A DNA stretch of 64,000 bases from Ignisphaera sp. (lineage in GTDB: Archaea; Thermoproteota; Thermoprotei_A; Sulfolobales; Ignisphaeraceae), in NCBI GenBank assembly GCA_038831005.1, contig JAWBKZ010000005.1:1-64000 (forward strand), read 5' to 3'. Position 1 is the stretch's first letter; each line of letters opens with the position of its first letter. Position numbers and translations under genes: made by a program. This document shows positions 38,123 through 62,100 of this stretch, piece after piece. Below the pieces are notes generated by a model. It worked only from the letters and a program-made list of their open reading frames with translations, did not search any database and was not told the origin of the DNA.

Positions 38123-38162
38123 TGTGTTATACCCCATATTTTAGTAAAGAGAATTATCTGAA

Positions 38163-42160: not shown

Positions 42161-42162
42161 AG

Positions 42163-42813
42163 TTACACACCTTTCTTCTTTTCTTCTATCCATTTAAGCA
42201 TTATTTTTACTCCTGTTGCAGCATCATTTGTCCAAGCATCTGCTTCTACATACTGACATGCGTATTGATCTACCCTTCCTCCTCCTATTATTATTTTCAC
42301 CTTATCTCTTAATCCTGCTTGCTTTATTGCCTCTATAGTTTTTTTCATCGATTCTATCCCTACAGTTATTAGACAAGACATCCCCACAATATCTGGATTG
42401 TACTGTCTAATGGCATCTACAAATCTTTGTGGCGATACATCAACACCTAAATCAATTACTTCAAATCCTGCAGCTTCAGCCATAGTTATAACAATGTTTT
42501 TGCCAATATCATGGATATCTCCTTCAACAGTACCTATAACGAATTTTCCCAATGTCTCTCTGTTTTTCCCAAGTTCTCTTAGTTTTTCTCTCGCCATATC
42601 TGAAATTGTTTTAAGAATTTCTCCAGCCATAACTAAATCGGCTACAAAATATTCTCCTCTTTCATATTTTTCTCCAACAACTTCGGCAGCCTTCTTTAAA
42701 TCATTTAATATATTAACAGGATCTTCAACACTAAGCCTCTTTTTTGCTAGATCAAGAGCTTTACTTTCATTTAGTTCAACAATAGCAGTGATAAACTCTT
42801 CTGACAAAGACAT
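42163..42813 (-). CDS. methyltransferase corrinoid protein (MtaC/MtbC type)
   Basis: About 216 residues. The N-terminal four-helix cap domain is followed by the cobalamin domain with the base-off motif EGDIHDIGKNIV (D-x-H-x-x-G; His is the lower cobalt ligand), the SCLITVGIESMKKTIEAI helix and IIIGGGRVDQYACQYVEADA. It carries methyl groups from a substrate-specific methyltransferase, here surely the UroD-type protein encoded just downstream. ATG 42813 is preceded by AGGTAA and a TATA box at 42845-42856; a frame from 42846 would start inside the promoter. Probable acceptor is H4MPT or the Cdh corrinoid protein (inference). Confidence 0.88.
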   Translation of the reverse strand: MSLSEEFITAIVELNESKALDLAKKRLSVEDPVNILNDLKKAAEVVGEKYERGEYFVADLVMAGEILKTISDMAREKLRELGKNRETLGKFVIGTVEGDIHDIGKNIVITMAEAAGFEVIDLGVDVSPQRFVDAIRQYNPDIVGMSCLITVGIESMKKTIEAIKQAGLRDKVKIIIGGGRVDQYACQYVEADAWTNDAATGVKIMLKWIEEKKKGV

Positions 42814-42844
42814 ACTATTACCTATAGCTACAATTAATTTGTAC

Positions 42845-42856
42845 AAATATATAAAA
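42845..42856 (-). promoter_or_regulatory. strong TATA box for the corrinoid methyltransferase operon
   Basis: TTTTATATATTT on the minus strand is 32-43 bases upstream of the ATG at 42813. Transcription would start near 42820-42825, giving a short leader with AGGTAA. Confidence 0.65.
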
Positions 42857-43871: not shown

Positions 43872-44834
43872 TTATGGAATAAGCATTCTTTTAAGCATAT
43901 TAATATTTATGAAACCTGCACTATAAGTAGTACCGGTTTTAATATTGTTTACAGTTACTACGGCTGGTGCGAATACTGATGGATCAACTTTGTATAGAAA
44001 TTCCCATCCATACATCTTTACAAGCTCTGTAAATGATTTACCATAATCTTTTGAGGCACTGCTTGGAATCTTTTCAACTATTTCCTTTAGTTTTACATCA
44101 TCTTCGTGTTCGACAAGATAGAACGTTGATCCACCATAAAGAAGCATATCATTGGTTCTACCAGTCATAATTAAAGGATCTGGATGAAGTGGTGATATAG
44201 GACATACACCAAATCCGTAGCGAATAGTCTTTATATTGTATCCAATTGTGTACATTTTGAATATCCCTGTCTCAACTACCCTTGCACTTACTTGAATAGA
44301 GCCAGCAATACTCGAGGGAGAGACTAGGACTAAGTATATGTTCTCTGGCTCTACCTTAACCTCTCTAGCCACATAATTTACCACTTCTTCAGATGGGTAC
44401 TGATTGGTCTCTAAAACAAGTACAGCCTCATTAGAGTATTCCACATATTCTATGAACTCAAATATCTTCTTCGGTTTTCTTGCTAAAGCTCTTGCAGGTC
44501 CACTACCATTAGCAAAGAATTCCCCGACTTGTATTCTCCAACCAGCTAATTGCGAAGCTATACACGCTTCTATAGGATAGTCCGTAGATACAGAGACTGC
44601 TGGTAACATAATTTCTCCAATAGATAAATTGGTCAACGTTACATTGGCTAGCCCACCAAGGCATACTCTTGAAACTATAACCCCTGCCTCAAAGCTTCCT
44701 TGAGTTTTAACACCCATATCGATAACATTTGCTTTCCCTATCTTAGATACTGATATTCTAAGTTCTTTCTCTCTATCGATAGCATCTTTAAGAATGTTTA
44801 GTGCAAGTTCATTCATAGGTTTAACCAAGTTCAT
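43872..44834 (-). CDS. mch: methenyl-H4MPT cyclohydrolase
   Basis: 320 residues. It interconverts formyl-H4MPT and methenyl-H4MPT in the cytoplasm. Family segments include GSFEAGVIVSRVCLGGLANV, IEACIASQLAGWRIQV, FFANGSGPARALARKPKKI and RYGFGVCPISPLHPDPLIM (pterin site), with full length. It starts at an ATGA overlap with the fwdC stop, after GGAGG, and is the last gene of the mtdB-ftr-fwdDB-fwdA-fwdC-mch operon. Confidence 0.95.
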   Translation of the reverse strand: MNLVKPMNELALNILKDAIDREKELRISVSKIGKANVIDMGVKTQGSFEAGVIVSRVCLGGLANVTLTNLSIGEIMLPAVSVSTDYPIEACIASQLAGWRIQVGEFFANGSGPARALARKPKKIFEFIEYVEYSNEAVLVLETNQYPSEEVVNYVAREVKVEPENIYLVLVSPSSIAGSIQVSARVVETGIFKMYTIGYNIKTIRYGFGVCPISPLHPDPLIMTGRTNDMLLYGGSTFYLVEHEDDVKLKEIVEKIPSSASKDYGKSFTELVKMYGWEFLYKVDPSVFAPAVVTVNNIKTGTTYSAGFININMLKRMLIP

Positions 44835-45679
44835 ATTGTTTCCTCCACCAATTGTTTATAGGTATCCACAATATGTTTATTATCTTCATACGATATTTGC
44901 AGAAATCCTCTACCGCCAACAAGGACATCACCTATAAATGTAGCAAAAGGTTTGAAGAAAACAACTCCTTTAACCTTTAATGAAGAAACTAGAGAATCTA
45001 TATAGAAACTAGGCAATATGGATGGAATGTGGCCGCCTATAACGATTCGTCCACCAATCATTCTTAACCCAGGATAAACACCGGAACTACCTTTGATGAT
45101 TACTGTTCCTCCCAACATATCGGTCCCTACAAGATTTCCACTACTTCCATCAACAACTATTGTTCCTCCTTTCATACCCCAACCTATTTCTGCTCCAGCA
45201 TTTCCATGTATATGTATTGTTCCTCCTTTCATACCCTTTCCAGGTCTCTCTCCATGTAGTTTACTTCCAACTCTATGCATAACATTTCCATATACCTCTA
45301 TATTACCATTAACCATTTTGGCTCCTAGATAATTTCTAACATTACCGTATATAGTTATATTTCCTCCCTTCATTTTATAGCCTATGAAGTGTCCTACATC
45401 GCCTCTTATAATTATTCTTCCGTTACTCATTTTATAACCTATGAAGCAAAGTTTATCATTACTGTTGTTTATGGTTATCTCCATGTTTTTTGTTTCTTGA
45501 GGAGCTACTGAAGGACCATCTATGTCAAATAATGTGTCTAATGTTATTGGTAAACCTCCTTCAATTATTTTCAAGTTCCTAATTTCATCTAACTTCTTGT
45601 TAACGAATTTATCTGGGGATATGTTTCTAGCATCAGTAAGAACATTAGGCTTAGATCTTAGTTTAAGTATGTAACTCAT
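44831..45679 (-). CDS. fwdC: formylmethanofuran dehydrogenase subunit C
   Basis: About 282 residues. A right-handed beta-helix built from repeats such as MKGGTIHIHGNAG, MKGGTIVVDGSSG and MLGGTVIIKGSSG, the same fold as the glutamate-synthase C-terminal domain. FwdC is the scaffold on which FwdA and FwdB sit. I chose ATG 45679, after GGGGTGAAGG; the ATG at 45700 lies inside the end of fwdA and adds seven foreign residues. The chain is close to archaeal length. Confidence 0.93.
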   Translation of the reverse strand: MSYILKLRSKPNVLTDARNISPDKFVNKKLDEIRNLKIIEGGLPITLDTLFDIDGPSVAPQETKNMEITINNSNDKLCFIGYKMSNGRIIIRGDVGHFIGYKMKGGNITIYGNVRNYLGAKMVNGNIEVYGNVMHRVGSKLHGERPGKGMKGGTIHIHGNAGAEIGWGMKGGTIVVDGSSGNLVGTDMLGGTVIIKGSSGVYPGLRMIGGRIVIGGHIPSILPSFYIDSLVSSLKVKGVVFFKPFATFIGDVLVGGRGFLQISYEDNKHIVDTYKQLVEETI

Positions 45680-45689
45680 ACCTTCACCC

Positions 45690-47411
45690 CTATTGAACAT
45701 TCACTTGCGTAGATATTTTCACAGGATTTCTGACTTCATGGTCCTTTATAATGAAGTTATCTAAAGTAACTGTATAGTATTGCTTAAACCTAGGTTCAAT
45801 GTACTTAATGAGATCTTTTTCAAGATCTTCTGGCATCTTTGGATTAATGTAGAAGGTCTTTCCATGAATTGTTTTGACTATTTCTCCATCCTTTACAACT
45901 ATTTCTCCATCTTTTATAACAATCCATGCACGGCTAAAAGCTTTGATAAGTGCTTCATAGTTCTTGGATATATCTACCTCGTGTGGATTAATATCGTATA
46001 TAGCGATATCAGCATCAGCACCTATACCTAAGTGACCCTTTATTTTATCAAGACCAAGTAGTTTAGCAGGTGAGGCTCGGGTCATTACAGCTATATCGTA
46101 TAGATTATATTCTCTATCTATTGATGGAAGTATAGATTTTCTAAGAGCTCTCTGATTTACCTCTTTCATTGTATCTTCTCTAGCCTTTTTACTCACAAGC
46201 CACGCAAATATTTTTGGATAGTCGAAGAATGTGCCCGCATTTGGATGATCTGTTGTTATGAATATTCTCCAAGGATCTCTAGCTAATAAAGCGATTTCTA
46301 GACCTATAACCCATTGAACTGTATTGACGTAGCTTTTCTTTTTGTATCTATAAGGAACAATACCAGCAGCTGCATCAACTTCCGTATCCATGCTCGCCCA
46401 TTTCCATCGCGTAAGATGATATAGCACATACTCAAAGGGTGCATCTGCAGTCATAGTCGTTGCAGGTCTATCGAGAATTACTTGTCCTAAGTCTAACGTT
46501 ATATAGGGATTTCTATTGAGTTCTTTTGCTATATCCTCTCCTCCACTTTCAAGAGTACTCCAAGAATCACCTTTATATCCCGCAAACTGGGTGTGAGTGA
46601 TATGCATTACAGGTCCATCACTTAATTTTGTTAATTCATCAGTAAGAGACATAGTCTTTAATGTTGTTTCATAGTTACCTGGATAACCAAGTCTATTACA
46701 ATGTACATGGACTTTATGCGGTATATTCAAGTATTGTGCAGCTTCAGCAACACTCTTAATAATGTCTCTTGGTGTTAGACCGTATTCTGGTATCTCTTCA
46801 TCTATATCTACTCCCCTACCTTTTAGAACCCATGAAATGTCTGAACCAGGATCAACAAGCTTAAGGGCATAGGTTTTTGTAGCAGACAAAAGCCATGCAA
46901 GGTACGCCACTATCTGATCTTTTGATCCTTCCTTGATCAGATCTAGAGCAAGCCAGTTAGAGTCTACTAGAACGTAAGTAGCTTTATCTATTATGGGTAT
47001 GGCATCTAGTTCATGATGCGTATGTCTAGTTTTTATAGGAGGTGTAGCAGGTTCAACTACAAATGTATATCCTAGACGTGCGTATCCATATCCTATCTTA
47101 AAAACATTTGGAACTGTAAGTCCTGTTTCAGCTCTTCTATATGGTAGCTTATGTGGTCTATTCGTTAGATAATGATCTTCAGGTCTTATAAGCCTTCCGA
47201 TATTAACCTTCGGTCCAGCTATATGGCTATGGATATCTATACCTCCAGCCATAACTACTTTATTTTTAGCATCTATTACGATTGTCTTACTAGCCTCTAC
47301 CTCACTAGCTTCAACTATCTTTCCATCTTTAATAGCGATATCCATAGGCTCTCCATTAACACCGTTTAGCGGATCATAAACGATTCCATTTTTGATCAAT
47401 ATCTGAACCAT
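45690..47411 (-). CDS. fwdA: formylmethanofuran dehydrogenase subunit A (amidohydrolase)
   Basis: 573 residues. FwdA condenses formate with methanofuran (or hydrolyses formyl-methanofuran) at a binuclear zinc site. Ligands are visible: H61 and H63 in GGIDIHSHIAGPKVN, the carboxylated Lys in YALKLVDPGSD, His in HVHCNRLGYPGN, MHITHTQFAGYKGD and the Asp of ITTDHPNAGTFFDYP. The set is complete, so the enzyme should be active. Two bases separate it from the fwdDB stop. Confidence 0.95.
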   Translation of the reverse strand: MVQILIKNGIVYDPLNGVNGEPMDIAIKDGKIVEASEVEASKTIVIDAKNKVVMAGGIDIHSHIAGPKVNIGRLIRPEDHYLTNRPHKLPYRRAETGLTVPNVFKIGYGYARLGYTFVVEPATPPIKTRHTHHELDAIPIIDKATYVLVDSNWLALDLIKEGSKDQIVAYLAWLLSATKTYALKLVDPGSDISWVLKGRGVDIDEEIPEYGLTPRDIIKSVAEAAQYLNIPHKVHVHCNRLGYPGNYETTLKTMSLTDELTKLSDGPVMHITHTQFAGYKGDSWSTLESGGEDIAKELNRNPYITLDLGQVILDRPATTMTADAPFEYVLYHLTRWKWASMDTEVDAAAGIVPYRYKKKSYVNTVQWVIGLEIALLARDPWRIFITTDHPNAGTFFDYPKIFAWLVSKKAREDTMKEVNQRALRKSILPSIDREYNLYDIAVMTRASPAKLLGLDKIKGHLGIGADADIAIYDINPHEVDISKNYEALIKAFSRAWIVIKDGEIVVKDGEIVKTIHGKTFYINPKMPEDLEKDLIKYIEPRFKQYYTVTLDNFIIKDHEVRNPVKISTQVNVQ

Positions 47412-47413
47412 TA

Positions 47414-49150
47414 TTACACCTTCTTCAACTCTTTAACTTTATTTAGAAGTAATTCCAAAAGGTCTTTATCACATAACACATTAGGTGGAGGATCAACAAG
47501 CTTCTTCATGTATATGGGTACGCCATCCATTCTGTAAGCTGTACCCTCACACTCTATACCTACCAAGCCTGCGGGAAGTATCACATCTGCAAAAGCTGTT
47601 GTGAGAGACCATTTAGCGTCTATGACGATTACAGGAATTTTGGAAAGATGCTCGACAGCTTTTCTTGGAAGATGTGCAGCTGGATCACTAGCTACTATTA
47701 ATGCAGCATCAACATCACCATATGTTAATAGATCTGGTGCAGAAGTGACTCCAACAATCATTCGCGGAAATCCTCTAGCAAAATCAACTGCAAATGGGTA
47801 ACCAGTATTCCACAGCAAAACATGATTTGCACCAGTAACATTGTAGTGTCCACGCATGGGAAGTAATACAAATTTAGTCCATTCATTAAGGTCTTGGATA
47901 AGCCTTATAGCTTCTTCTATATTCTTATATCTAGCTTCATTCTGTGTTAAACCCATGCCAAAGAATATAACTCCGTATCTAGCACTTCTCATTATATCTG
48001 CAAGCTCTAGCACCTTCTCTCTAGGAACGCCTGCGATAACAGGATTCTCTATCTCTAGATCTCTTACAGCCATCCGTAAAGCCGTTATAAGCTCTAGATC
48101 TTTTCCAGGTTCAATCTGTATGAATATGTCAGCAAGATCTGCGGTTAAAGTTTTTCTGACATCTATTACAACAATTTTTCTCTGTCTGCGTCCTTCAGAA
48201 AACCTTCCCTTAGCCATCACCAGTCTTGTTATGTGATTCATATGTGCTTCTCTTGGGTTACATCCCCAGAACACAACTAAATCGGATAGATGGAGTATTG
48301 GAGCAAAGGTTGAAGTTACAACACCAACCTCTTGTTCTGCTAGAACAGTAGGGCCATGACAAACCACAGATGTGTTATCTATAACCCCATGAAGTATCTC
48401 TGCAAGCTCTACAGCCTTCTCTATAGCCTCTACACATGTATTTGAGAGACCAAATATTAGTGGGTATTTCGATGAAATTAGTATTTCCGCAGCTCTTTCT
48501 ATAGCCTTCTCTACATCAGTTTCTATCAACTCATTATCAATTCTTATATAGGGTTTAATTATTCGATGTTTGTGATAATTCAAAAATTTTGATATTGATA
48601 TTGCACATCCACCGATATTTCTAACTATTTTATTACCCTCAATCTCGATTTTGAGATAGTCGCAAAGATCTCCACAGAATGGACATACAACATTTTCTTC
48701 TACACGTTTATCTCCAATCCTTATCTCTTTGTCCGCTAGAGGCACCTTTATTATTTTTGCATTTAGAGATCTGAGAAGATCATTTAGGGTTGTTACAGGC
48801 TCTTCTGTGGGCTCTATTACGACTCTTGTACTCTTTAGATATGGAATGCCAGTACCATCGGTATCTGGATTAACTATGAAGTTTGCCCAGGGACCCATAG
48901 GTATAAAGATGGAGCCTCTACGAATTCTATCGCTTATTCTTACTGGAAGGACTATAGAACCATATTCACTCGATATCTTTACTCTATTGGTGATGCCTAA
49001 GAACTTCGCATCATCAGGATTCATCTCGACATATGCAATAGATTTTATATATTGCTCAGACCACTTACCTTCACTTTCCATTGAAACTCCTTGCATAATA
49101 GACCTGCCAATATTTAAAACAAATAGAGATGGTGAAACACTTTGTTGCAT
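47414..49150 (-). CDS. fwdB: FwdD-FwdB fusion, formate-dehydrogenase-like subunit of formylmethanofuran dehydrogenase
   Basis: 578 residues in two parts. Residues 1-125 are the molybdopterin-dinucleotide-binding FwdD domain (SIMQGVSMESEGKWSEQYIK, YVEMNPDDAKFLGITNRVKI). From about 150 on lies FwdB: a [4Fe-4S] site at C156, C159, C163 and C182 (VVCPFCGDLCDYL, GGCAIS), and the Mo/W ligand with its catalytic partner at C264-H265 (VVCHGPTVLAEQE), as in formate dehydrogenases. It reduces CO2 to formate for transfer to methanofuran by FwdA, or the reverse. FwdD and FwdB are more often separate genes. No FwdE, F, G or H gene accompanies it. GGTGATAA precedes the ATG. Confidence 0.9.
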   Translation of the reverse strand: MQQSVSPSLFVLNIGRSIMQGVSMESEGKWSEQYIKSIAYVEMNPDDAKFLGITNRVKISSEYGSIVLPVRISDRIRRGSIFIPMGPWANFIVNPDTDGTGIPYLKSTRVVIEPTEEPVTTLNDLLRSLNAKIIKVPLADKEIRIGDKRVEENVVCPFCGDLCDYLKIEIEGNKIVRNIGGCAISISKFLNYHKHRIIKPYIRIDNELIETDVEKAIERAAEILISSKYPLIFGLSNTCVEAIEKAVELAEILHGVIDNTSVVCHGPTVLAEQEVGVVTSTFAPILHLSDLVVFWGCNPREAHMNHITRLVMAKGRFSEGRRQRKIVVIDVRKTLTADLADIFIQIEPGKDLELITALRMAVRDLEIENPVIAGVPREKVLELADIMRSARYGVIFFGMGLTQNEARYKNIEEAIRLIQDLNEWTKFVLLPMRGHYNVTGANHVLLWNTGYPFAVDFARGFPRMIVGVTSAPDLLTYGDVDAALIVASDPAAHLPRKAVEHLSKIPVIVIDAKWSLTTAFADVILPAGLVGIECEGTAYRMDGVPIYMKKLVDPPPNVLCDKDLLELLLNKVKELKKV

Positions 49151-49164: not shown

Positions 49165-50106
49165 TTACACACGGATGTCTATATTCTTTACTATTTCTAG
49201 AGCATCTCTCAGATACAGATGGTAAGGTCCCAGTTTACCCCCATAGTTACCAGCATCAATCTTTACGACACCAGGAACCGAGGCTGCAGCCTTTATCGCT
49301 ATACCCATCGCTTTAAGTACGTACTCCTTCCTAAGTCCGTTTATGACTATTTCAAAAACGCTGTTAACTTCTTGAGGAATTTTTGTATCCTTAACCATTT
49401 CTTTTAATGTAGGACAGTAAAGATGATTCGTGGTAGCTCTTAATTTAGGGTATTTAAGAGATCCTACCTTTGAACCTGATCTAACGATGCCTCCCGGAAA
49501 TGGTGTTATAATGCCTCTTGCGTACTTTCTAATAGCTTTTACAGATTTTTCGGCTGCTTTGAGACCGGATTCAAGATCTTTAGCTAATATTAGTATATTA
49601 CCACCAGCTACAGCTTTAATAACACCAAAACTATCCTCAATAATGAATTCTCCCTCCATAACAGGTATTCTCCATACTTTTCTTCCATACATTGTATCTT
49701 CTTTTTCAAAACCATCACCAAATTTCGCTAAAGCTTTACCTATACTGATTCTTCTCTTCATTTTTGGTAATCCATCGAATGCTGCTGTCGTTGGTGCGGT
49801 AAGAATGCATTGCCCTACTCGTGTAAGTGTAACTATCTTCAGATTAGCTGGATCAGTATGGTATATCTGTATTGCTACTCCAGGTCTTGAATCAGGTGTT
49901 ATCTTAGGTGAAAGTAGCGTCTCTATACCGCATTCTCCCGGAGAAGCAATAACTGAGGTGCCGAATCCTGTCGCAACTTTAGCTGCTATAAGTGCCCATT
50001 TATGGTTTATAGCTGTAACGATTATTCGTGTAGCATACATAGGAAATGCTTCTGCAAATGTGTCTTCAACTACTACTGAGCCAAGTTTAAGTGTCAATAC
50101 ATACAC
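49165..50106 (-). CDS. ftr: formylmethanofuran:H4MPT formyltransferase
   Basis: 313 residues. It moves the formyl group between methanofuran and H4MPT. Typical segments are VEDTFAEAFPMYATRIIVTA, SPGECGIETLLSPKITPDSR, RPGVAIQIYH and the C-terminal AMGIAIKAAASVPGVVKIDA. Full length and no missing region. It follows mtdB by 13 bases and precedes fwdDB by 14 in one operon, the same functional block (Ftr with FwdA/B/C-like subunits) found in the bacterial formyltransferase/hydrolase complex. Confidence 0.95.
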   Translation of the reverse strand: MYVLTLKLGSVVVEDTFAEAFPMYATRIIVTAINHKWALIAAKVATGFGTSVIASPGECGIETLLSPKITPDSRPGVAIQIYHTDPANLKIVTLTRVGQCILTAPTTAAFDGLPKMKRRISIGKALAKFGDGFEKEDTMYGRKVWRIPVMEGEFIIEDSFGVIKAVAGGNILILAKDLESGLKAAEKSVKAIRKYARGIITPFPGGIVRSGSKVGSLKYPKLRATTNHLYCPTLKEMVKDTKIPQEVNSVFEIVINGLRKEYVLKAMGIAIKAAASVPGVVKIDAGNYGGKLGPYHLYLRDALEIVKNIDIRV

Positions 50107-50119: not shown

Positions 50120-51034
50120 TTACTTGCTTACGAGCTGTTTTGCTATTTCCCATGCAATTCTATAATCAAATATACCTTTAGGTACTTCAGCAACACGTTT
50201 AAATAGTTCAGCAAGGATCTTGTTCTTTAAGGAGCCTATCCTTAAAGCTCCAACACCATAAACTCCCGGAAGGATCTCTTTATCTTCATCATTTGGTTCT
50301 AGTCCTTCTATACCAGTTGGTGGTACAGCATTAACATCTGCAACTATTTTAACCTTTTTACCGCATTTCTTAAGTGTTTCTAGACTCAGTAATCGGATAC
50401 CAGCAGCACCTGAAGCAAGTATTAGGTCAGCTTCTTCAATACCTTTACATATCTCTTCTTGAGTATGAGCCTTAATACCTTCAACGACATTAAGACCTAC
50501 CTCTTTATTTACTCTATCCGCAATAGCTTTTGCTTTTTCAATGCTACGTGAAGTCACGTATACACTTGCACCTTCGAGACCAAACATAACAGCTGCAGCA
50601 AAACCTACAGGACCTGTTCCAGCAAGTATTACAACTTTATTGTTTTTGAAGTCGCTAAAGCCGTGTTTTATAGATAGCTGGTACATCTTGGCTACAGCTG
50701 CAGCAGCAGTAGTGTTTGAACCACGTGGATCAACTATTACTGCAAATTCAAAAGGTGGAAACATAGTTTTTTTAACTATTTCAACTATTTTTTCAACTTT
50801 TTCAACATCATAACCCCCTATAAACATCTTTGTGTATTTAATGCCCTTAGATCCTCTTGGAAACATGGCATCCTGTACTATTCTTTGAACATCTTCCGGC
50901 TCAACATTACTGTACAAGAGTATATGAGCTTCAGGAAACAGATCTATAACCATCAATGGTTCAAATGGACTCACGTGCTTATCTGTATCTAGAAACAGTA
51001 TGGCTAATTTTGGCTGGTTAAATGAACTAGACAT
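50120..51034 (-). CDS. mtdB: NAD(P)-dependent methylene-H4MPT dehydrogenase (MtdA/MtdB family)
   Basis: 304 residues. It interconverts methylene- and methenyl-H4MPT with NAD(P) as hydride carrier, unlike the F420-dependent Mtd of methanogens. The catalytic N-domain has LAILFLDTDKHVSPFEPLMV and DPRGSNTTAAAAVAKMY; the Rossmann loop is VVILAGTGPVGFAAAVMF, followed by VTSRS, whose Ser-Arg suggests NADP. DVNAVPPTGIEGL near residue 225 is an MtdB hallmark, while the GSNTTAAA and AGTGPVG motifs are closer to MtdA, so I call only the family. ATG follows AAGGTG. First gene of the C1 operon. Confidence 0.9.
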   Translation of the reverse strand: MSSSFNQPKLAILFLDTDKHVSPFEPLMVIDLFPEAHILLYSNVEPEDVQRIVQDAMFPRGSKGIKYTKMFIGGYDVEKVEKIVEIVKKTMFPPFEFAVIVDPRGSNTTAAAAVAKMYQLSIKHGFSDFKNNKVVILAGTGPVGFAAAVMFGLEGASVYVTSRSIEKAKAIADRVNKEVGLNVVEGIKAHTQEEICKGIEEADLILASGAAGIRLLSLETLKKCGKKVKIVADVNAVPPTGIEGLEPNDEDKEILPGVYGVGALRIGSLKNKILAELFKRVAEVPKGIFDYRIAWEIAKQLVSK

Positions 51035-51181: not shown

Positions 51182-51715
51182 TTAATCTGAATAGTGGAAC
51201 TGCTTTTCACTAAGCTTAAACGCTCCAACCAATCTATAGAGTGTTCTTTCTCGTGATCTCTTTACAATTTCATCGGGGTTTCCCCATATGATTGCATTAG
51301 TTGGGCATGTAGCAATACATCCCGGTTCCAGATCTTCAGATCGTAGTTTAGAGCATAGATCGCACTTAATTACGTATCCTATAGGAGTTAGTTCTGGTAT
51401 ACCAAATGGACATGCAATTATACATGAAGTACAACCTATACATCTAGTAGTTCTATCAATTACTGCACCACTTTTATCAAATATTAGTGCATTGGTTGGA
51501 CATACTGTTACGCATGGTGCTTTAACGCAATGGAAACACGATATAGGTTTACTTAAACCACTTTCAATTTCATACAATTTTATAAATGCATATTCACTAT
51601 TTAGGAATTTACACACTTCTTCACAGGTATAACAGCCTATACACTTATCATATAGTATGAACCTTCTAACTCTAATTTCTAATCCTGGAGCAGTTCCTTT
51701 ATCTGGGTTAGACAT
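51182..51715 (-). CDS. HycB/CooF-like ferredoxin with four [4Fe-4S] clusters
   Basis: About 177 residues carrying 16 cysteines in four sets: CIGCYTCEEVC, CFHCVKAPCVTVC, CIGCTSCIIAC, and CDLC followed eleven residues later by CIATC. This is the electron-wire type found as HycB, CooF or DMSO-reductase B subunits. ATG 51715 is preceded by AAGGTAA; an ATG at 51730 is the alternative. It is the last gene of the hydrogenase run, right after a GltD-like flavoprotein gene and 148 bases before mtdB. It could pass electrons between the flavoprotein, the hydrogenase and the Fwd enzyme. Confidence 0.85.
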   Translation of the reverse strand: MSNPDKGTAPGLEIRVRRFILYDKCIGCYTCEEVCKFLNSEYAFIKLYEIESGLSKPISCFHCVKAPCVTVCPTNALIFDKSGAVIDRTTRCIGCTSCIIACPFGIPELTPIGYVIKCDLCSKLRSEDLEPGCIATCPTNAIIWGNPDEIVKRSRERTLYRLVGAFKLSEKQFHYSD

Positions 51716-51737
51716 ACTAATTACCTTCATTAGATAT

Positions 51738-52811
51738 CTACATTTTTCTGTAGGTTAAAAAACTATCTAGATATTTAGCTGCTCTAAGTCCCGAGCTGAA
51801 AGCTCTACCTATGAAGCTAGGACCTATTACTACGTCTCCAGCCGCAAATACTTTATCTAGGTTTGTTTGATAGAATTTGTTTACAATTATTCTTCGAGAT
51901 CTATCTAACGAGATACTTGAGAACTTGTCTATGAATGGTGGTGTAGGTATTTCGCCTACAGCAAGAATAATAAGATCGGCATTTATTTCGAACTCTGAAC
52001 CTGGTACGGGAATAGGCTTAGGTCTACCAGTTTCATCAGGTTCACCAAGTCTCATCTTAGTGAGTACGATTCCTGTGGCAATATTGTTAGAGGTTATTAT
52101 TTTAGATGGTTGGACAAGCTCTATGAAATGTGCCCCTTCCCTAATTAGGCTATTTATTGTATATATACCTGCAGGGGCTTCTGCTATAGTTCTTCTATAG
52201 GCTATATAGACTTCAGCTCCTTCTTCTAATGCTTTTTCAGCTGCATCAATAGCTGAAAGACCTGCGCCAATAACTACTACCTTGTCTCCTTTAATTGGCT
52301 TCTCTTGTATTAGACCTTCTTCATAGAGTCTCCAATGATATAGATATTCAAGTGCTGTTAAAACATTCTTACTGTCTTCACCTTCAATGCCAAGTTTCCT
52401 TGAGCTCCATGTGCCTGTAGCAATGAGAACTGTGTCATATTTTTCCACAAGCTCTTCAAGAGCTGTGGTATTTTCAACAAATTCGTCTCCTTCATCATGT
52501 CTTGATTGACCTTTCGTAAAGACTTTAGTCTTTAGGTAAAACTTAACAGACATCCTATCTCGAAGATCTTCAACACCTTCTATAACATTATCGGGATATA
52601 TTCTATAGCTAGGTATGGCAAACATCATTAAGCCTCCAGCATAAGGGAGTTTATCATAAACATCAACGTCGTAACCCATGCATGATAAATAGCCTGTAGC
52701 TGCTAATCCAGCTGGACCTCCACCAATTATGGCTATAGAACCTCTCTTACCTCCTCTATTTTTACATAGAAATGCGTAACGCATATCTATCCCTATATCA
52801 TTACTATACAT
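51738..52811 (-). CDS. GltD-like FAD/NAD(P)H oxidoreductase
   Basis: 357 residues of the glutamate-synthase small-chain type. The FAD site is SIAIIGGGPAGLAATGYLSC, the second dinucleotide site GDKVVVIGAGLSAIDAAEKA, and the C-terminal FAD contact VFAAGDVVIGPSFIGRAFSS. The N-terminal Fe-S domain of true GltD is absent, and the four-cluster ferredoxin gene next to it may replace that domain. No glutamate synthase large subunit is near. Expected to move electrons between NAD(P)H and the ferredoxin. An alternative ATG is ten codons in (52784). Confidence 0.8.
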   Translation of the reverse strand: MYSNDIGIDMRYAFLCKNRGGKRGSIAIIGGGPAGLAATGYLSCMGYDVDVYDKLPYAGGLMMFAIPSYRIYPDNVIEGVEDLRDRMSVKFYLKTKVFTKGQSRHDEGDEFVENTTALEELVEKYDTVLIATGTWSSRKLGIEGEDSKNVLTALEYLYHWRLYEEGLIQEKPIKGDKVVVIGAGLSAIDAAEKALEEGAEVYIAYRRTIAEAPAGIYTINSLIREGAHFIELVQPSKIITSNNIATGIVLTKMRLGEPDETGRPKPIPVPGSEFEINADLIILAVGEIPTPPFIDKFSSISLDRSRRIIVNKFYQTNLDKVFAAGDVVIGPSFIGRAFSSGLRAAKYLDSFLTYRKM

Positions 52812-52817: not shown

Positions 52818-53078
52818 TCAATATTCTACTATAAAAATTTTTACATACTCATTTTCAGCTAGGCTTACCCCTATAATTTCTAAGGCTTTTGCTGGATCAT
52901 CTATAATGCTATAACCTCTATTCTTTAGCATTTCTATAACGTCCTTTGGTAGCTTATTAACGTCAACTTCTTTAAGGTGCTTACATAACGCTATAGGAGC
53001 TACGATATGTCTTGGTAGTAGTGTTGGAATAGATGATTGTCCAATTACTCTACATAAAACTGATTTTAGACGCATCAA
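52818..53078 (-). CDS. small conserved-looking protein of the hydrogenase operon
   Basis: 86 residues, soluble, with two cysteines near the start and a C-terminal beta strand pair (EYVKIFIVEY). I do not recognise it. Its ATG overlaps the stop of the small-subunit gene (ATGA), so it is translated with the hydrogenase. The position corresponds to that of maturation or linker proteins in other group 4 operons, but no similarity to HycH or HycI is visible. Confidence 0.6.
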   Translation of the reverse strand: MMRLKSVLCRVIGQSSIPTLLPRHIVAPIALCKHLKEVDVNKLPKDVIEMLKNRGYSIIDDPAKALEIIGVSLAENEYVKIFIVEY

Positions 53079-53590
53079 GCTTCAACTCTTTTATAGTGTT
53101 TTTTTGGTTTCAATAAACCTAAGAGTATTGCTGCACCATATATTATCGCTTCAGGTCTAGCTGGACATCCAGGAACATAGACTACTTTGTCTATCACTAC
53201 ATCTATCTCGTGCAGTTTGTCGAGAATTTTATAGAAGCCTCCTATCGTTGAATATGATTCAAACCATATATTTCCACCTACAGCACAAGATCCTATAGCC
53301 ATAACTAGCCGGGGTCTAGGTACAGCTCTTAATGCTTTGATAACTTTTGATAAAGTCTTTACAGTTATGGGGCCTGTGAGAAGAACTAGATCGGCATGTC
53401 TGGGGCTGGCCACAAGTCTTATGCCAAATCTTTCTACATCAAACCAAGGAGTTAGCACATCAAGAATCTCTATATCACAGCCATTACAGCTTCCAGTATT
53501 AAGATGGTATACCCATATGCTTCTCTTTAATTTCGATAAAGCCTTCTCTAGATCCTTTTCACTAAAATTAGTTATTGTATCAATCTTCAT
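53075..53590 (-). CDS. group 4 [NiFe] hydrogenase small subunit (MbhJ/HycG/NuoB-like)
   Basis: 171 residues. It holds the proximal [4Fe-4S] cluster: C-x2-C in HLNTGSCNGCDIEIL, Cys in MAIGSCAVGGNIWF and Cys in VYVPGCPARPEAI. The short NuoB-like form without signal peptide is typical for membrane-bound, cytoplasm-facing group 4 hydrogenases. It lies seven bases after the HycF/MbhN-like gene. Confidence 0.92.
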   Translation of the reverse strand: MKIDTITNFSEKDLEKALSKLKRSIWVYHLNTGSCNGCDIEILDVLTPWFDVERFGIRLVASPRHADLVLLTGPITVKTLSKVIKALRAVPRPRLVMAIGSCAVGGNIWFESYSTIGGFYKILDKLHEIDVVIDKVVYVPGCPARPEAIIYGAAILLGLLKPKKHYKRVEA

Positions 53591-53597
53591 AGGCGTT

Positions 53598-54095
53598 TCA
53601 TCTCGTGGTTGTCGTTCTTAATAATGATTCAATTCTTCTACAATTTGGACACAACTCCAACAGTTCTTCTGGAAGTTCTTTAACAAGGTTCTTTACTTTA
53701 TTCATTAATTTTCTTGTAACAAATTTTTTGCCACATTTTCTACATATGCTAAGGCTGTGTTGTACATCGCTATAAAGTTCGTAGATCTGATCTGAAGCTA
53801 GTTCAAATTCTTTTGTAATCTTTATAGCTTTCTCAGGACATGTATCGGCACACATACCACAGAAGATACATCTTCCCACAAAATATCTCAGTATTAATGT
53901 CTCTCCTTCTTGAATAAAGCTTAATGCTTTAGGTGGACATATTCGTGTACATGCACCACACCCTATACATTTATCTGGATCAACCTCTATAGCGCCTCTG
54001 AATGACTCTGTAACTAGAGGTCTATCATAGGGATACATTACTGTAACTGTACCTATTTTAGCTGAAATAGGTAGTATCTTAAGGAATTGAACCAT
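53598..54095 (-). CDS. hydrogenase ferredoxin subunit (MbhN/HyfH/NuoI-like)
   Basis: About 165 residues. Two [4Fe-4S] motifs, CIGCGACTRICPPKAL and CIFCGMCADTCPEKAI, conduct electrons to the small subunit. The C-terminal part has a further pair of C-x2-C motifs (CRKCGKKFVTR and LCPNCRRIE) as in HycF/HyfH, likely a zinc site. I chose ATG 54095 with GGTGA directly upstream; a GTG at 54104 sits in that site. It follows the large-subunit gene. Confidence 0.9.
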   Translation of the reverse strand: MVQFLKILPISAKIGTVTVMYPYDRPLVTESFRGAIEVDPDKCIGCGACTRICPPKALSFIQEGETLILRYFVGRCIFCGMCADTCPEKAIKITKEFELASDQIYELYSDVQHSLSICRKCGKKFVTRKLMNKVKNLVKELPEELLELCPNCRRIESLLRTTTTR

Positions 54096-54100
54096 ATTCT

Positions 54101-55813
54101 TCACCTAACAGCTTCTAACTTTTTTCTAGACAAAACATACAGAGGTACACCCTCTATCTTGCCCGTCTTAATGTTTATAATTAGTGCTCGATCAGTACAT
54201 GAAAAACAAGGATCAATACTAGCTATGGTAATAGGAGCATCAGCTAGTTCTATTTCTCTAAGCATTATTGGTACTGCAGGAAGATTTTGATATGTGGGAG
54301 CACGTACCCTCCATCTATATGGAGAGTAAATACCTGTTATAACCATATGTATAACCTCTCCTCGTGGAGCTTCAACAGATCCTATACCTATCCTATGTGG
54401 CTCGGGATCCCAACTTTCTACAGCTATAGCGCCTTTTGGAAGCTTATCTAGAAGTTGTCTCAATATGTCTATACTTTCAAAGATTTCATCAATACGTACT
54501 AATGCTCGAGCCATATTATCACATTCATCTTGAACAGCTACATCGAAGTGTATGTACCTATATGCAGCATAAGGATAATCCTTCCTTATATCTCGAGGTA
54601 TACCAGAACCCCTAACAGTTGGACCTACTAGTGAAAGTGCGTGTGCTTCTGATTTAGGCAGAATACCTGTTCCCTTAAGTCGTGCTTTAACCTGTGGAAC
54701 AGATACAGCTATATCGATAAATGTCTTGAATTCCTTCTCAACATTCTTCAGTACTTCTAGAGATTTCCTAATTTTGTCTTCATCAATATCTCTTCTGACT
54801 CCTCCAACAATATTGATTCCATAAGTCTTCCTACTACCTGTTAAAAGTTCTGCTAAAATCATTACCTGTTCCCTGATTCTCCACGAGTGCATGAAACCTG
54901 TATCATAACCTAGGAGGTGGAAGGCTACACCAAGCCATAACAAATGGCTATGTAGCCTCTCTAGCTCAAGTACTATAGATCGTATGTATTGCGCTCTTTC
55001 AGGTACATCAATTTGAAGAGCCTGTTCAACTGCTTGACAATAAGATGTAGAATGTACGAAACCACATATACCACAGATCCTTTCAGCTAGAAAAGGTACT
55101 TGATTGTACTTCATTGATTCTCCAAGTTTCTCTATACCTCTATGCACCATGAATCCTACGTACCTAACATCAACAATTTTTTCACCTCTTACGTATAGTT
55201 CAAAATACTCAGGCTCATGTAATGCTGGATGATAAGGACCTATAGGGATAATTGTTACTGCTTCAGCTTCAACTTCTTTAGCACGCTCAATAACTTTTGG
55301 TGTATAGAGTTTCATTAGATCTTGAATAGCGTAATCCTTTCTTAAGGGATATACATCAGTAGGCCAATCATCTGGTAATACAAATCTATACTGATTCCTT
55401 CCAGCAAATTTTATGCCCATGAGATCATGGGCCTCTCTTTCGTACCAATCAACTGCTTTAACTAAATTAACTAGTGTGGGCACAATAAGATCGTTTTCTG
55501 TTAGTGGAACTTCAATAATAACACTCTTGCTTAATGTATCTATTCCAAAAACGTAATAAAGCTTAAAGAAACCGTTAATGGTCCTTTCATCAGATGAAAC
55601 CATAGTCCTCAGATAAACATCCTTAATCTTCAGTAACTTCTCAATAACATTGTAGAGATTATTCTTCAGTGTTACAACTCTTAGAAAATCCGTCCCTCTT
55701 TCCTCAATTCTTGCCATGCCCTGTATACTTTGTATAAATTCGTTTAAGTAAACCTCATTGAACTTACTGTTAGCATCAACGTTATAGAGTTTGCTCAAAT
55801 ATGTATACACCAA
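54101..55813 (-). CDS. group 4 [NiFe] hydrogenase large subunit, NuoC-NuoD fusion (HycE/HyfG-like)
   Basis: 570 residues. The N-terminal third is a NuoC-like 30-kDa domain (VDWYEREAHDLMGIKFAGR then RFVLPDDWP). The rest is the catalytic chain with NiFe ligands C247 and C250 in RICGICGFVH, and C536 and C539 in DPCFSCTDRALI. All four cysteines are present, so it is a true hydrogenase and not a complex I subunit. The NuoC-NuoD fusion is the HycE layout; in Pyrococcus Mbh these are two proteins. It starts at GTG 55813, overlapping the NuoH-like gene by 32 bases; a TTG at 55801 is possible. Confidence 0.92.
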   Translation of the reverse strand: MVYTYLSKLYNVDANSKFNEVYLNEFIQSIQGMARIEERGTDFLRVVTLKNNLYNVIEKLLKIKDVYLRTMVSSDERTINGFFKLYYVFGIDTLSKSVIIEVPLTENDLIVPTLVNLVKAVDWYEREAHDLMGIKFAGRNQYRFVLPDDWPTDVYPLRKDYAIQDLMKLYTPKVIERAKEVEAEAVTIIPIGPYHPALHEPEYFELYVRGEKIVDVRYVGFMVHRGIEKLGESMKYNQVPFLAERICGICGFVHSTSYCQAVEQALQIDVPERAQYIRSIVLELERLHSHLLWLGVAFHLLGYDTGFMHSWRIREQVMILAELLTGSRKTYGINIVGGVRRDIDEDKIRKSLEVLKNVEKEFKTFIDIAVSVPQVKARLKGTGILPKSEAHALSLVGPTVRGSGIPRDIRKDYPYAAYRYIHFDVAVQDECDNMARALVRIDEIFESIDILRQLLDKLPKGAIAVESWDPEPHRIGIGSVEAPRGEVIHMVITGIYSPYRWRVRAPTYQNLPAVPIMLREIELADAPITIASIDPCFSCTDRALIINIKTGKIEGVPLYVLSRKKLEAVR

Positions 55814-56690
55814 TCCAGATAATTATGGCTAGTGAGTATATTAGTATTAAGGTTTTGAAAGCTAAATCAATTCTCGATCTTCCGAGAATTGTACTAACTA
55901 TAGAGAAAACCATATAGATTATTGCTGCAAATATGTGAAGAAGAAGCAGATGTAAACTCTGGTTACCTACGTTCAATCCAAACATTAACATAATTAAAGC
56001 TACAGGTATAGAGATAAGTAAATATTTTTCAAGAAGATGGTTATATATGTATAATCCCAATATAGGACCTGATAGCTCTATTATTGAACCTGAAGCTAGT
56101 TCAGGTTCAGCTTCATGTAAATCATATGGAAGTCTCCTACTAGATACATACACAGCTATCAATAGAGGTATAAAGGATAGTATAAAAAGGGATAGACTAG
56201 CTGAGCTATTAACATAACGTGACACCATAGTTAATACCAAGAAGGCTGCAAAGCCAACTTCATTAGCCACATCTATAGAGATAATCCTAAATGTGCCTAT
56301 GATTGAGAAAGGATTTGCTGAAGATATGTATAGTAGTAGATGTAGTGCATGTATAGATATCACAATCACAAGAAATAAGGCAGCATAGGGATAAAATGAT
56401 AATAGAGATGTGGTAGATACTATAGAAAGTGATATGACTATGGCTAGAAATAGTGTTAAGGTTAACGATATAGATAGAGGTAGAATTAGATATCTAACTT
56501 TTGTAGACATAATTAATTCCTTAGACATTAATTTAAGTATATCATACCATGTCTGAAAAATTGTTGGAGGACCATACCTAGTCTGTATATTGGCCTTAAT
56601 CTTACGCTCTATACCATCAAGTATAGGTGGTATAAATATATACAAACATACAGACAGAAATGTGGTTAAGATCGTTATTAGCTCCACCAA
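55782..56690 (-). CDS. hydrogenase membrane anchor (MbhM/HycD/NuoH-like)
   Basis: 302 residues, about eight membrane helices. Family motifs are the N-terminal ILDGIERKIKANIQTRYGPP and the loop SSRRLPYDLHEAEPELASGS, with the acidic residues that line the quinone-site-like cavity at the membrane/peripheral arm boundary. It links the hydrogenase arm to the ion-pumping arm. GTG start overlaps the preceding small gene by 13 bases. Confidence 0.9.
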   Translation of the reverse strand: MVELITILTTFLSVCLYIFIPPILDGIERKIKANIQTRYGPPTIFQTWYDILKLMSKELIMSTKVRYLILPLSISLTLTLFLAIVISLSIVSTTSLLSFYPYAALFLVIVISIHALHLLLYISSANPFSIIGTFRIISIDVANEVGFAAFLVLTMVSRYVNSSASLSLFILSFIPLLIAVYVSSRRLPYDLHEAEPELASGSIIELSGPILGLYIYNHLLEKYLLISIPVALIMLMFGLNVGNQSLHLLLLHIFAAIIYMVFSIVSTILGRSRIDLAFKTLILIYSLAIIIWIGVYIFEQTL

Positions 56691-56995
56691 GCGACCACCA
56701 ATACTGTGACTATGGCGAGTACGGAAAGTAGTTCTAAGAATAGAGATTGAGTTGAAAGAGAATCTTCTAGAGAGCCTTGGATTTTTTGAAGTGTTATAGC
56801 TATAGCTTTAGCTATATCAATGACCTTGTCCTCTTTTGATAATGCCTTATGTACATATACGAAGATGTTTACTAGTTTACTGAATTTCGTTTTACTATCA
56901 GCTATTATCTTACTTCCTTTACGTTTCAATGTTTCAGTAATTCTCTCTATTATAGATGCGACTGTATAATTCAAGGTAGTTCTCCTCCAAGCCAT
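56678..56995 (-). CDS. small helical protein with C-terminal membrane anchor
   Basis: 105 residues. A charged helical region (1-80) is followed by one membrane helix at the end ([20 protein letters not shown]). It overlaps the antiporter-like gene upstream by 25 bases and the NuoH-like gene downstream by 13, so it is surely expressed. By position between antiporter and NuoH-like subunits it corresponds to MbhI of Pyrococcus, the linker of the two arms, but I see no sequence similarity. An alternative TTG start at 56974 would overlap only the stop codon. Confidence 0.6.
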
Positions 56996-58488
56996 ATAGT
57001 ATCGTGAGTTATGTGCTTAACTCGTGAGTATACATACATTGTTACTATAGTGAATAACGTTAATGCTAATATTAACGAAATAATTACATCCATAGTTATG
57101 GGTATGTTAAGAATCAGAGGCATCAAAGGTGATAGTACTAAACTTAATATAGCTGGTATATATTCCCATTTCACTAACTGTTCTTCAGATACATGGACAA
57201 CGTCTATTTTCTTTGTTTTCCAAGATCCCCAGTAAACCGTCAAATACTTTATGCTGTATATTATTGCTAGAGACAAAGCCATTACTATAGAAACAAGTAG
57301 AAATATCCCCCATAGAGTATTAAATGTTATGAACTCTATCAACAATACGAACAATAAAAGTTTAGCTATAAATCCAAGTGTAGGCGGTATACCCATTAGC
57401 GATAGAGCTGAAATTAATGCTGATGTAGATGCTTTTGGAGCTATTTTCACTAAAAAACCTAACCTATCTATATCTCTTGTATGAGCAATTACTTCAACTG
57501 TTCCTGCATTGAGAAATAATGCAGATTTAAATAATGAATGAGCTAATGCTAGAGATATTGACGTGCTATATGCTAGTACACTATTTGTCAATTTGTAGAT
57601 CATAAGAGAGATCATCATTAGTCCTGTATTTTCTATTGTGCTATATGCTAAGATCCTCTTTATATCTATTTGAACTAAAGCCATAAATCCTCCATATATA
57701 GCTGAAAGGATCCCCAAACCAGTAAGAATCGCTGGTGTAATCTGGGTATCGATTATAGGTAGGGTTCTCATTACACCATATATCCCCATCTTAACCATCA
57801 CACCTGAAAGAAGAGCTGATGCAGGTGCTGGCGCAAGTGAATGTGCATCAGGTAGCCAAAAGTGTAAAGGAATTATAGCTGCTTTAGCTGAAAAACCTAA
57901 TATAGTTATTAAAGATATATGTAGAGGCATTATATTTGTCACCAATGGAATATCAGTTAAATACGTAGATAATGCATTTAGGAATCCTCTATTTAAGGAT
58001 AAATAGGCTAAAAAACTCATTAAAGCTAGATCTGCTGGTACCATTGATACTACTAAATATCTTAAACCTGCTCTAAATGTCTCAGTTCTTATTTCGTACA
58101 CTATTGTGAAAAAACCTATGATTTCGGAGAGAAACCAGAAGATGATGAATAAAGCAATAGTGGGTGCTAGAAAAGTCAAGTAGATTGATAGAGCAAAGAG
58201 ATCTATAAGTATATGTAAGTCTGAGGATCTGTATTTCTTTAATTCATATGTATCACTATACATTGATGCAGAAAAGCCTATAGCTAATGCTAGGCATGAG
58301 AATACTAATGAAGGTGTATCTATGAAATCTTGGCCATATGTTACTAGAGTCATGAGAACTAATCCTACATATCCTATGAATCTCAATTTTCTAATCTTTT
58401 TGAAGCTTCCAACAATAACTATAAAGATTAGTGTCACTATAATAAGTATGAAATAAATGGTTTTGAAAGATTCTTCAACAACTATCAA
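56971..58488 (-). CDS. antiporter-like subunit (NuoN/MrpD/HyfB family), second copy
   Basis: 505 residues and about 14 helices. The Proton_antipo_M core is recognised by [39 protein letters not shown] and the broken helix [15 protein letters not shown] with its Lys/His residues. It starts at TTG 58488 after GGGTGATAA, and that TTG overlaps the previous stop. Two antiporter-like subunits in one hydrogenase operon allow more than one ion channel per complex, an arrangement like the Mrp-linked formate/CO hydrogenases of Thermococcales. Confidence 0.88.
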
Positions 58489-60131
58489 GGTTTATCACCC
58501 AATATTCTGGCAATATCTTCAACTATTTTTATATACTGCTTAACACCATCTATTGAAGAGACATGAATATTGTTGCTGTATAGAAATGTGTAAGGTTCTC
58601 CCTGAATAGATATCATTCCCAGAATCATTAATCCTATTGCCATGATCATGCACACTATTGTTGCTATGGTTACGTCAACTCTTTTCTTGTTCTCTTTTGG
58701 TTTCTGAAGGAAAAGAGCATATATAAGTTTAAAATAACCTATAGCAGTAATACCTGATATTACTATTAATGCTATTGCATAATAAATGAAATTTGCACTT
58801 ATTAGTGCAAGAAAAAGTATATATTTGCTGAAGAAGCCTGCTAAAGGGGCAATACCTAGAAGACTCAATAAACCAATAACTATAGCTATAGACAAGTATG
58901 GATACATTGTTCCATAACCATATATATCGTTAATTTTTCTACTGTTTGCTATACTAGCTAGAGTTCCTAATCCCATAAAAACCATTGATTCTCCTAGAGC
59001 ATGTGTAATGCTGTGAAAGATTATTCCTGTTAAGGTTAACGCTATAGTTACTTCGGTTTGACTTGATGTTAAACCAGCCATAGCCATGAACATAAGCCCT
59101 ATATGACTTATTGTACTATAGGATAAAAGTCTCTTAATATCTTTTTGAATGGTCATTATGAGAGCTCCAAGAAGTCCTGTTATAAAACCAAGTACACTTA
59201 GAACATATAGTATAAAGTCTCTAAAAGATACTCCCCATAACCTAAACATCAGAGTTGAGCCGTAAGGTGTAAATATTGTTAAAAATAGCCTCAAAATACC
59301 ATAGATTCCAACCTTATCAACTATGCCTGCAAAGATTGCTGAAGCTGGTGTAGGTGCTTCAGTATATGCGCTTGGAAGCCAGTAATTATTAGGAAAGAGA
59401 CCTGCTTCGAAAGTTAGTGCCCAGATCATGAATGCTGTAGCTGTGGCTGAAGCTAACACAATGTTTCCTATACAGATATTATCAGTACAGTTTCCACTCC
59501 AGTGACTCATTATCGAATTATAGTTGTGAGCTTTAGCTGAGAGATCGGCAATATTTAGTGTTCCAAAAGATAGGTATAGAAAGCTTACGCCAAAGAGAAA
59601 GAATGTCGTTGCTAAAGAACCTATAAATGCATAACTTGCTGAAGCTTCTATAGCCCACTTCCTTTTCTTAAAGAATGAAACAAGAGCGTATGAAGATAGT
59701 GCTAGGACTTCGAGCATAACGAAGAAATTGAATATATCACCAGTATAGATGCAACCTGTTATACCTGTAACTAAGAGTAAAAACAGAAGTGTATGCCATA
59801 CATAATCTCTAATTACTTTATAGTACCAGAAAGTATATAGTGAGACTAGGAAAAATATTGTACATGCAAGTAATCCGTATACAGCATTAATGAAATCAGC
59901 TACATAAACTATGCCCATAGGTGGAGGCCAGCCACCAAACGCATAGACAATAGCTCCGTTTTGCAAAACATTCTTTAGAACAATCAATGACAATATAAGC
60001 ATCATGATTGCAGCAGAAAGCTGTAGAAACGAATAAATATATCTGTTTCTTGTAACTAAAGCAAGAAGGGGTATAATGAGAGCTATAATAGTTGGTACTA
60101 ATGGTATTAATGCAAGTTCATGATTAAACAA
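58485..60131 (-). CDS. mrpD: MrpD-like antiporter subunit (MbhH type)
   Basis: 548 residues, about 14 helices. Core motifs are the helix-7/8 region [40 protein letters not shown] and the broken helix [15 protein letters not shown]. It follows the MrpE gene in the order usual for MrpCDE-like blocks. TTG start after GTGATG. It is expected to carry the Na+ or H+ path coupled to hydrogenase turnover. Confidence 0.88.
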
Positions 60132-60141
60132 TTTTCATCAC

Positions 60142-61856: not shown

Positions 61857-62100
61857 ATCTTCCCACCTTTTTAATCAGTACAATAGATATTAATGGTAGA
61901 AGTCCTACAGATATAGCTATGTAGACAAGTACTATATCTGGTGCCATTAAGAGAAAGAGAAGAAAAGCGTAGAGAGTACTCTGTACTGCTGAAAACATTA
62001 TAGCTTTTAGAAGATCCTTCGAAACTATTGCTAAAGCTACAAACAAAACAGAGATCATCGAGATGAGCCCTATGATTATGAATATTGTCTCCTCTAACAT
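61843..62100 (-). CDS. MbhD-like subunit (DUF4040, part of MrpA)
   Basis: 85 residues in three helices with the SKDLLKAIMFSAVQSTLYAF segment typical of the DUF4040 domain of MrpA and MbhD. The NuoL-like N-terminal part of MrpA is absent, as in Mbh hydrogenases. AGGTGAG precedes the ATG; it overlaps mrpG by seven bases. Confidence 0.8.
   Translation of the reverse strand: MLEETIFIIIGLISMISVLFVALAIVSKDLLKAIMFSAVQSTLYAFLLFLLMAPDIVLVYIAISVGLLPLISIVLIKKVGRYEKT

Follow-up and report, generated by a model that had tools for sequence, protein, structure and literature searches.

The mtdB-like gene of an Ignisphaera sp. genome was assigned, with a probability of roughly 0.8, to an NAD(P)-dependent methylene-H4MPT dehydrogenase that would act in a complete F420-free archaeal Wood-Ljungdahl pathway, as part of a genus-level replacement of the F420 module. 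The gene lies in a window of 64,000 nucleotides (the whole stretch of DNA that was analysed), which is part of contig 5 of a 1.70-Mb genome that is 99.5% complete. In the methyl branch of archaea, hydride is usually taken to be carried by F420. In the proposed pathway, formyl-methanofuran from Fwd would be processed by Ftr and Mch, MtdB would transfer hydride from NAD(P)H to methenyl-H4MPT or back, and a MetF-like barrel protein would yield methyl-H4MPT. The methyl group would then be handed by CdhDE to CdhC, which would form acetyl-CoA with CO from CdhAB, and a CoA ligase could yield acetate and ATP. In the genus, the MtdB-type redox module would take the place of an F420 module (Mtd, Mer, CofD, FrhB), with the backbone otherwise shared.

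The mtdB-like open reading frame was confirmed, and the motifs GSNTTAAAAVA, AGTGPVG, and DVNAVPPTGIEGL were all found in it as claimed in the initial annotation. Pfam searches gave a match to Mpt_N (PF09176; 74.4 bits, cut-off 27) and a Rossmann match, phmmer against PDB aligned M. extorquens MtdA to residues 12-301 of the window protein (E 2e-47), and no NCBIfam model scored over its cut-off. The Mpt_N domain and the whole-length similarity to MtdA place the protein in the MtdA/MtdB family, and this homology backs the earlier proposal of an NAD(P)-type dehydrogenase in an archaeal host; its Rossmann motif, together with a TSR motif widely found in the archaeal rows, suggests that the cofactor may be NADP. 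The MtdA and MtdB proteins of methylotrophic bacteria (PDB 1LU9, 6TLK, 6TGE) share with it whole-length homology, Mpt_N, the Rossmann GTGPVG, and DxNAxPP, but the window protein differs from them in belonging to a separate archaeal clade, in sharing an operon with the genes for Fwd, Ftr, and Mch, and in the CODH/ACS cluster of the window. The mixture of MtdA and MtdB features previously ascribed to it dissolves on inspection, since the motifs in question are simply common to both.

The gene is the first in a run on one strand in the order mtdB-ftr-fwdDB-fwdA-fwdC-mch (Table 1), in which fwdD and fwdB form a single gene with the FwdD part N-terminal. A hydrogenase cluster lies upstream of mtdB on the same strand, so that the description of a C1 operon led by the dehydrogenase would be right only with a separate promoter at mtdB. 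Immediately upstream of mtdB are 147 gene-free bases, with a TATA-like TTTAAATA at 31-38 bases upstream of the gene, a kind of word that the window holds no more often than expected at random. An mtdB clustered with homologues of fwdDB-like, fwdA, ftr, fwdC, and mch genes was also seen in a bacterium, Halanaerobium polyolivorans (L093).

Table 1. Features of the window, with coordinates, strand, and the evidence for each assignment
Feature	Coordinates	Strand	Evidence
ADP-forming acyl/acetate-CoA ligase	15880..17991	+	TIGR02717 614 bits, over cut-off
Candidate methylene-H4MPT reductase (MetF-like protein, 257 aa), closing the cdh cluster	19123..19896	-	TIM barrel (predicted); exclusive with Mer
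RACo/AcsV-like corrinoid reactivator	20825..22576	-	Pfam/NCBIfam scans
cdhE	22745..24271	-	NF003195 544 bits
cdhD	24189..25514	-	TIGR00381 332 bits
cdhC	25511..27121	-	TIGR00316 609 bits
cdhB	27152..27697	-	PF02552
cdhA	27698..30076	-	TIGR00314 1135 bits
Methanofuran synthesis, mfnB (+), mfnE (-), mfnF-like (-)	35630..38137	mixed	PF04476, NF040622, TIGR03123
Possible entry point for methyl groups: corrinoid protein with URO-D-type methyltransferase	40883..42846	-	
mch, methenyl-H4MPT cyclohydrolase	43872..44834	-	TIGR03120 377 bits
fwdC	44831..45700	-	TIGR03122 210 bits
fwdA	45690..47411	-	TIGR03121 746 bits
fwdD-fwdB fusion, formylmethanofuran dehydrogenase	47414..49150	-	TIGR03129 498 bits, residues 153-572; FwdD model, residues 10-129
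ftr, formylmethanofuran:H4MPT formyltransferase	49165..50106	-	PF01913/PF02741; TIGR03119 401 bits, over cut-off
mtdB-like, NAD(P)-dependent methylene-H4MPT dehydrogenase (predicted), 304 aa	50120..51034	-	Pfam, phmmer, tree
16-Cys Fe-S protein	51182..51730	-	
GltD-like NAD(P)H flavoprotein	51738..52811	-	NF009409 445 bits, over cut-off
[NiFe] hydrogenase of group-4 type, including Mrp-like antiporter subunits	53075..62477	-	large subunit keeps RICGIC and DPCFSC

The gene set of the archaeal H4MPT Wood-Ljungdahl pathway was recovered from the window, with Fwd, Ftr, Mch, and CdhA, C, D, and E all over their curated cut-offs; taken as a whole, the pathway steps other than that of MtdB are all encoded there, most of them over curated cut-offs. 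Within the region 15880-30982 lie the five cdh genes, cdhA to cdhE, together with the CoA ligase, the MetF-like gene, and the corrinoid reactivator, and the mfn genes sit between this cdh cluster and the mtdB operon. The complete CODH/ACS cluster went unmentioned in the initial annotation. The hydrogenase was assigned to group 4 on the basis of both Cys pairs of the NiFe site and of NuoB/CD/H-like and Mrp-like subunits. Together with the GltD-like flavoprotein and the Fe-S protein it probably couples H2, ferredoxin, NAD(P)H, and an ion gradient. The order hydrogenase-GltD-FeS-mtdB-ftr-fwd-mch recurs in a contig of Desulfurococcaceae Bin S23 (L059). The idea that the electron-input subunit of the hydrogenase was swapped along with the cofactor was considered and found unsupported, as the GltD-like gene occurs in the F420-type genome G421 too; it is missing beside the hydrogenase of G329, which is also F420-type.

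A search of the window genome for F420-dependent mtd and mer, as suggested in the initial annotation, returned neither: no match was found to F420-Mtd (PF01993; controls M. jannaschii and M. acetivorans positive), to Mer or the luciferase superfamily (TIGR03555; PF00296; controls positive), or to CofD (controls positive). These absences support the suggested F420-independent H4MPT pathway with a MetF-like reductase. The window does encode a CofE-like protein (32487-33383) with a weak PF01996 match; this protein is probably not the F420 ligase, because the F420-type G329 carries a homologue (51%) alongside a true CofE encoded by another gene (PF01996, 243 bits). The CofE-like protein is retained in F420-type and F420-free relatives alike, and could perhaps be a glutamate ligase for methanofuran or H4MPT.

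The second redox step was assigned to the 257-aa MetF-like protein on the basis of its fold, two residues, gene order, and distribution, and these make it the best candidate for the missing methylene-H4MPT reductase. No significant link to MTHFR or Mer was found at the level of sequence: Pfam and NCBIfam gave no match, the Pfam MTHFR model (PF02219) searched at E values up to 5 against 19 family members gave a best E of 0.064, and nothing significant was returned by hmmsearch against PDB sequences or by hhalign of the family profile against E. coli MetF and against the Mer of G329. The weak, non-significant hhalign alignment with E. coli MetF sets D96 opposite the RGD aspartate. The AlphaFold2 model (pLDDT 91.6) is an eight-strand TIM barrel, for which Foldseek placed MTHFRs at the top (E 1e-8) and VIA gave Z 19.2 with human MTHFR (rmsd 3.2, 235 aligned) and Z 18.7 with Mer (rmsd 3.4, 230 aligned). 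The score for Mer tied with those of other luciferase-like barrels, and therefore the function is not fixed by fold alone. Two residues are invariant across all 19 MetF-like proteins compared: E10, within HEFVPTR where strand 1 ends, and D96, within GDxPxYGE following strand 4. MTHFR, Mfr, and Mer have a catalytic Glu and a pterin-binding Asp according to the available part of PMC11094777, and E10 and D96 match these in place, the positions having been assigned by secondary structure rather than superposition. The predicted fold thus combines the barrel, the strand-1 Glu, and the strand-4 Asp of a methylene-tetrahydropterin reductase. An invariant Arg168 falls, at an approximate alignment position, near the end of strand 6, where the reductases carry a carboxamide residue.

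MetF-like protein and Mer were both searched for in 47 genomes, comprising 34 with Mtd or MtdB and 13 others, and in none of the 47 were they found together. Among the 34, MetF-like protein was present in 21 (E 1e-80 or better), Mer over cut-off in 8, and neither in 5, two of which (G248 and G368) have sub-cut-off Mer matches; Fisher's test gave p 7e-5 for the mutual exclusion, a value that ignores relatedness. Sub-cut-off luciferase-family matches occurred in 11 of the 34, nine of these being genomes with the MetF-like gene or with none, and were read as paralogues. The other 13 genomes gave strong MetF-like matches in two, weak matches in three, and Mer in none. In G294 (34 bases apart) and G143 the next gene after the MetF-like one is mtdB; in G266 (92 bases apart) it is F420-mtd. 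The MetF-like gene is also present in the type strain of Ignisphaera aggregans (G161; L203), which has no MtdB or CdhA, and so the protein would serve elsewhere too; there it adjoins mtrH (convergent, 381 bases), and in G329 it is Mer that adjoins mtrH (divergent, 115 bases). Remoter relatives (L221, L222, and L223; 27-35% identity) occur in genomes that have neither Mtd nor MtdB.

Across 147 genomes of the order, CdhA was found over cut-off in 10, MtdB in 9, and F420-Mtd in 2, and no genome had both MtdB and F420-Mtd. Seven of the ten CdhA genomes (G000, G208, G294, G310, G415, G428, and G143) have MtdB and MetF-like protein with neither Mtd nor Mer; two (G329 and G421), both in the window's genus, have F420-Mtd and Mer with neither substitute; and in one (G437, 81% complete) all four are missing. 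CofD, among the genomes of the order tested, was present in G329 and absent from G000, G208, G294, G310, and G143. Of the other two genomes with MtdB, G361 has no CdhA and G463 matches CdhA in part (535 bits). In the phylum sample an MtdB-like gene was found in 55 of 398 genomes, unfused in 42 (including fragments or split genes in G313, G367, and G396), and these 42 yielded F420-Mtd in none and CofD in 23. Of 36 plasmid hits, 6 were retrieved. The initial annotation had held that membership in a broad, already described archaeal clade with F420 use would speak against its reading. This objection holds to some extent: such a clade was indeed noted for Bathyarchaeia in the accessible portion of PMC7886697, and 23 of the 42 genomes have CofD, but F420-Mtd is absent from all 42.

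The MtdB tree was built from matches of at least 190 bits and at least 240 aa, with rows of at least 88% identity collapsed (145 to 97 rows) and the fragments from G313, G396, and G367 left out. In this unrooted tree the window protein is nested in a bacteria-free archaeal clade of 34 rows (99/81), which also holds the bathyarchaeial MtdBs, and more narrowly in a Desulfurococcales subclade (100/100); this nesting speaks against the position near the base of the family that had been suggested for it. The genus has two MtdB lineages, one comprising the window, G208, G310, and G428, and the other G294 and G415; the second includes G143, G463, and a Vulcanisaeta MAG, and lies near Bathyarchaeia. 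MtdB was therefore gained at least twice or transferred among lineages. A single Thermoprotei MtdB clade was disfavoured (p-AU 0.023, for a group picked after the first tree had been seen).

The backbone is common to both types in the genus and the redox enzymes are exchanged, as seen from the CdhA and Ftr of both types, which fall in one clade. The CdhA tree unites all ten genomes (100/100) to the exclusion of 27 rows from elsewhere in the phylum, and G329 and G421 pair up within its poorly resolved interior; in the Ftr tree the F420-type pair groups with six MtdB-type rows (85/83). The order in G329, ftr-mtd-fwdDB-fwdA-fwdC-mch, agrees with the window operon save for an F420-mtd located after ftr and before fwdDB, and genes for CofE and FrhB adjoin it; G421 has ftr-mtd followed by a fwdDB-like frame. 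Either module may be the older of the two. It is rather probable that the 257-aa protein belongs to a further class of methylene-H4MPT reductases, distinct from MTHFR, Mfr, and Mer, that has spread widely among Bathyarchaeia and Desulfurococcales, has so far been missed by curated models, and together with MtdB would make the archaeal Wood-Ljungdahl pathway fully F420-free, both F420 steps having been exchanged as a unit within Ignisphaera.

The direction of flux is where the preferred reading meets its strongest competitor, a mainly oxidative use in which methyl groups from methylated compounds or acetyl-CoA would be converted to CO2, with MtdB yielding NAD(P)H and the hydrogenase freeing H2. 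The corrinoid protein and URO-D methyltransferase genes downstream of mch favor such a use, as does G361 with its MtdB and MetF-like gene and no CdhA, and we regard it as plausible though less likely than not. Against it, CdhA scores over cut-off in seven of the order's nine genomes with MtdB, and the MetF-like gene in the cdh cluster suits acetyl-CoA synthesis or cleavage at least equally. A C1 route that only assimilates or detoxifies (methionine, serine, formaldehyde) and serves no energy pathway would agree with the MetF-like gene beside mtrH in G161, which fits biosynthetic methyl transfer; it appears improbable given that full cdh and fwd-ftr-mch sets share a 64-kb window with a CoA ligase and an energy-converting hydrogenase.

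That the reductase is some unseen enzyme instead of the MetF-like protein is rather unlikely. The lack of a sequence-level tie to MTHFR or Mer speaks for an unseen enzyme, and so do the five dehydrogenase carriers with neither MetF-like protein nor Mer over cut-off; the mutual exclusion with Mer, the position of the gene in the cdh cluster here and beside MtdB or Mtd in other genomes, and the fold and residues of the protein all speak for the MetF-like candidate. Acquisition of MtdB from bacterial methylotrophs is very improbable. Family members with PDB entries are bacterial, and to our knowledge the biochemically known MtdA/B members all are; against such a source, the archaeal clade that includes the window is free of bacteria, the bacterial rows are split among clades flanked on either side by archaea, and monophyly of all bacterial rows was rejected (p-AU 0.023). 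This pattern fits transfers from archaea to bacteria, as far as an unrooted tree with some long branches may be read in this way, and transfers of the MtdB family in that direction were reportedly proposed by Adam et al. in 2019.

For the F420-free pathway preferred here, the closest known systems differ in part. The F420-type H4MPT Wood-Ljungdahl pathway of methanogens and Archaeoglobus is alike in Fwd, Ftr, Mch, and CdhABCDE and differs in both F420 steps. Archaeal MtdB is already known from Bathyarchaeia (2021): the Mtd of Bathy-6 was described as closer to the NADH-dependent bacterial enzyme in the available text of Loh et al. 2021 (PMC7886697), and this NADH-type Mtd belongs to the same archaeal clade and the same pathway as the window MtdB. 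The same text reports F420 synthesis in Bathyarchaeia genomes, in contrast to the window genome, which has no CofD, F420-Mtd, or Mer. The replacement of F420-Mer by a TIM-barrel MetF in ANME-1, as given in the part of PMC9012536 at hand, is the same idea as that proposed for the window protein; the ANME MetF adjoins MetV, whereas scanned proteins neighboring the window MetF-like protein gave no match to a MetV model, and the window family is not matched by the Pfam MTHFR model. In hot-spring Bathyarchaeia, mer was not recovered from two families and an alternative unknown complex may serve, according to the available section of PMC8407382; the MetF-like protein is a candidate for this missing Mer.

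Some Ignisphaera were noted to have H4MPT functions in the part of Chistoserdova 2016 (PMC5020050) available to us, which says nothing on the kind of dehydrogenase; the two MtdB lineages and the F420 type in the genus point to exchange and transfer rather than to loss alone. Bins S23 and S33 of Ignisphaera were called fermentative, with the autotrophic label on just two other sediment MAGs, in the accessible passages of PMC8579995, and the presence of CdhA over cut-off in both (taken to be G428 and G415, respectively) suggests that these supposed fermentative heterotrophs carry an unrecognised carbon-fixation pathway. Within the open literature, as far as its texts were accessible, no description was found of MtdB, an F420-free Wood-Ljungdahl pathway, or CODH/ACS in Ignisphaera, the scope being sources outside subscription. 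The within-genus exchange pattern looks new, and both it and the unrecognised MetF-like reductase candidate deserve follow-up: a genus with F420 and F420-free versions on one backbone offers a natural experiment on cofactor choice, and the reductase candidate is testable because a homologue is present in the cultured type strain I. aggregans.

In 13 of the 55 genomes with an MtdB-like gene, MtdB is fused to an extra N-terminal part of ~250 aa, for which a fold search gave no clear match; fused proteins are those of L032-L043, L045-L047, L090, L091, L096, and L098 (L034 excepted). F420-Mtd is present in all 13 of these genomes and lies within 500 bases of the fusion gene in 11 of them, and the two enzymes could possibly provide for F420/NAD(P) exchange through H4MPT.
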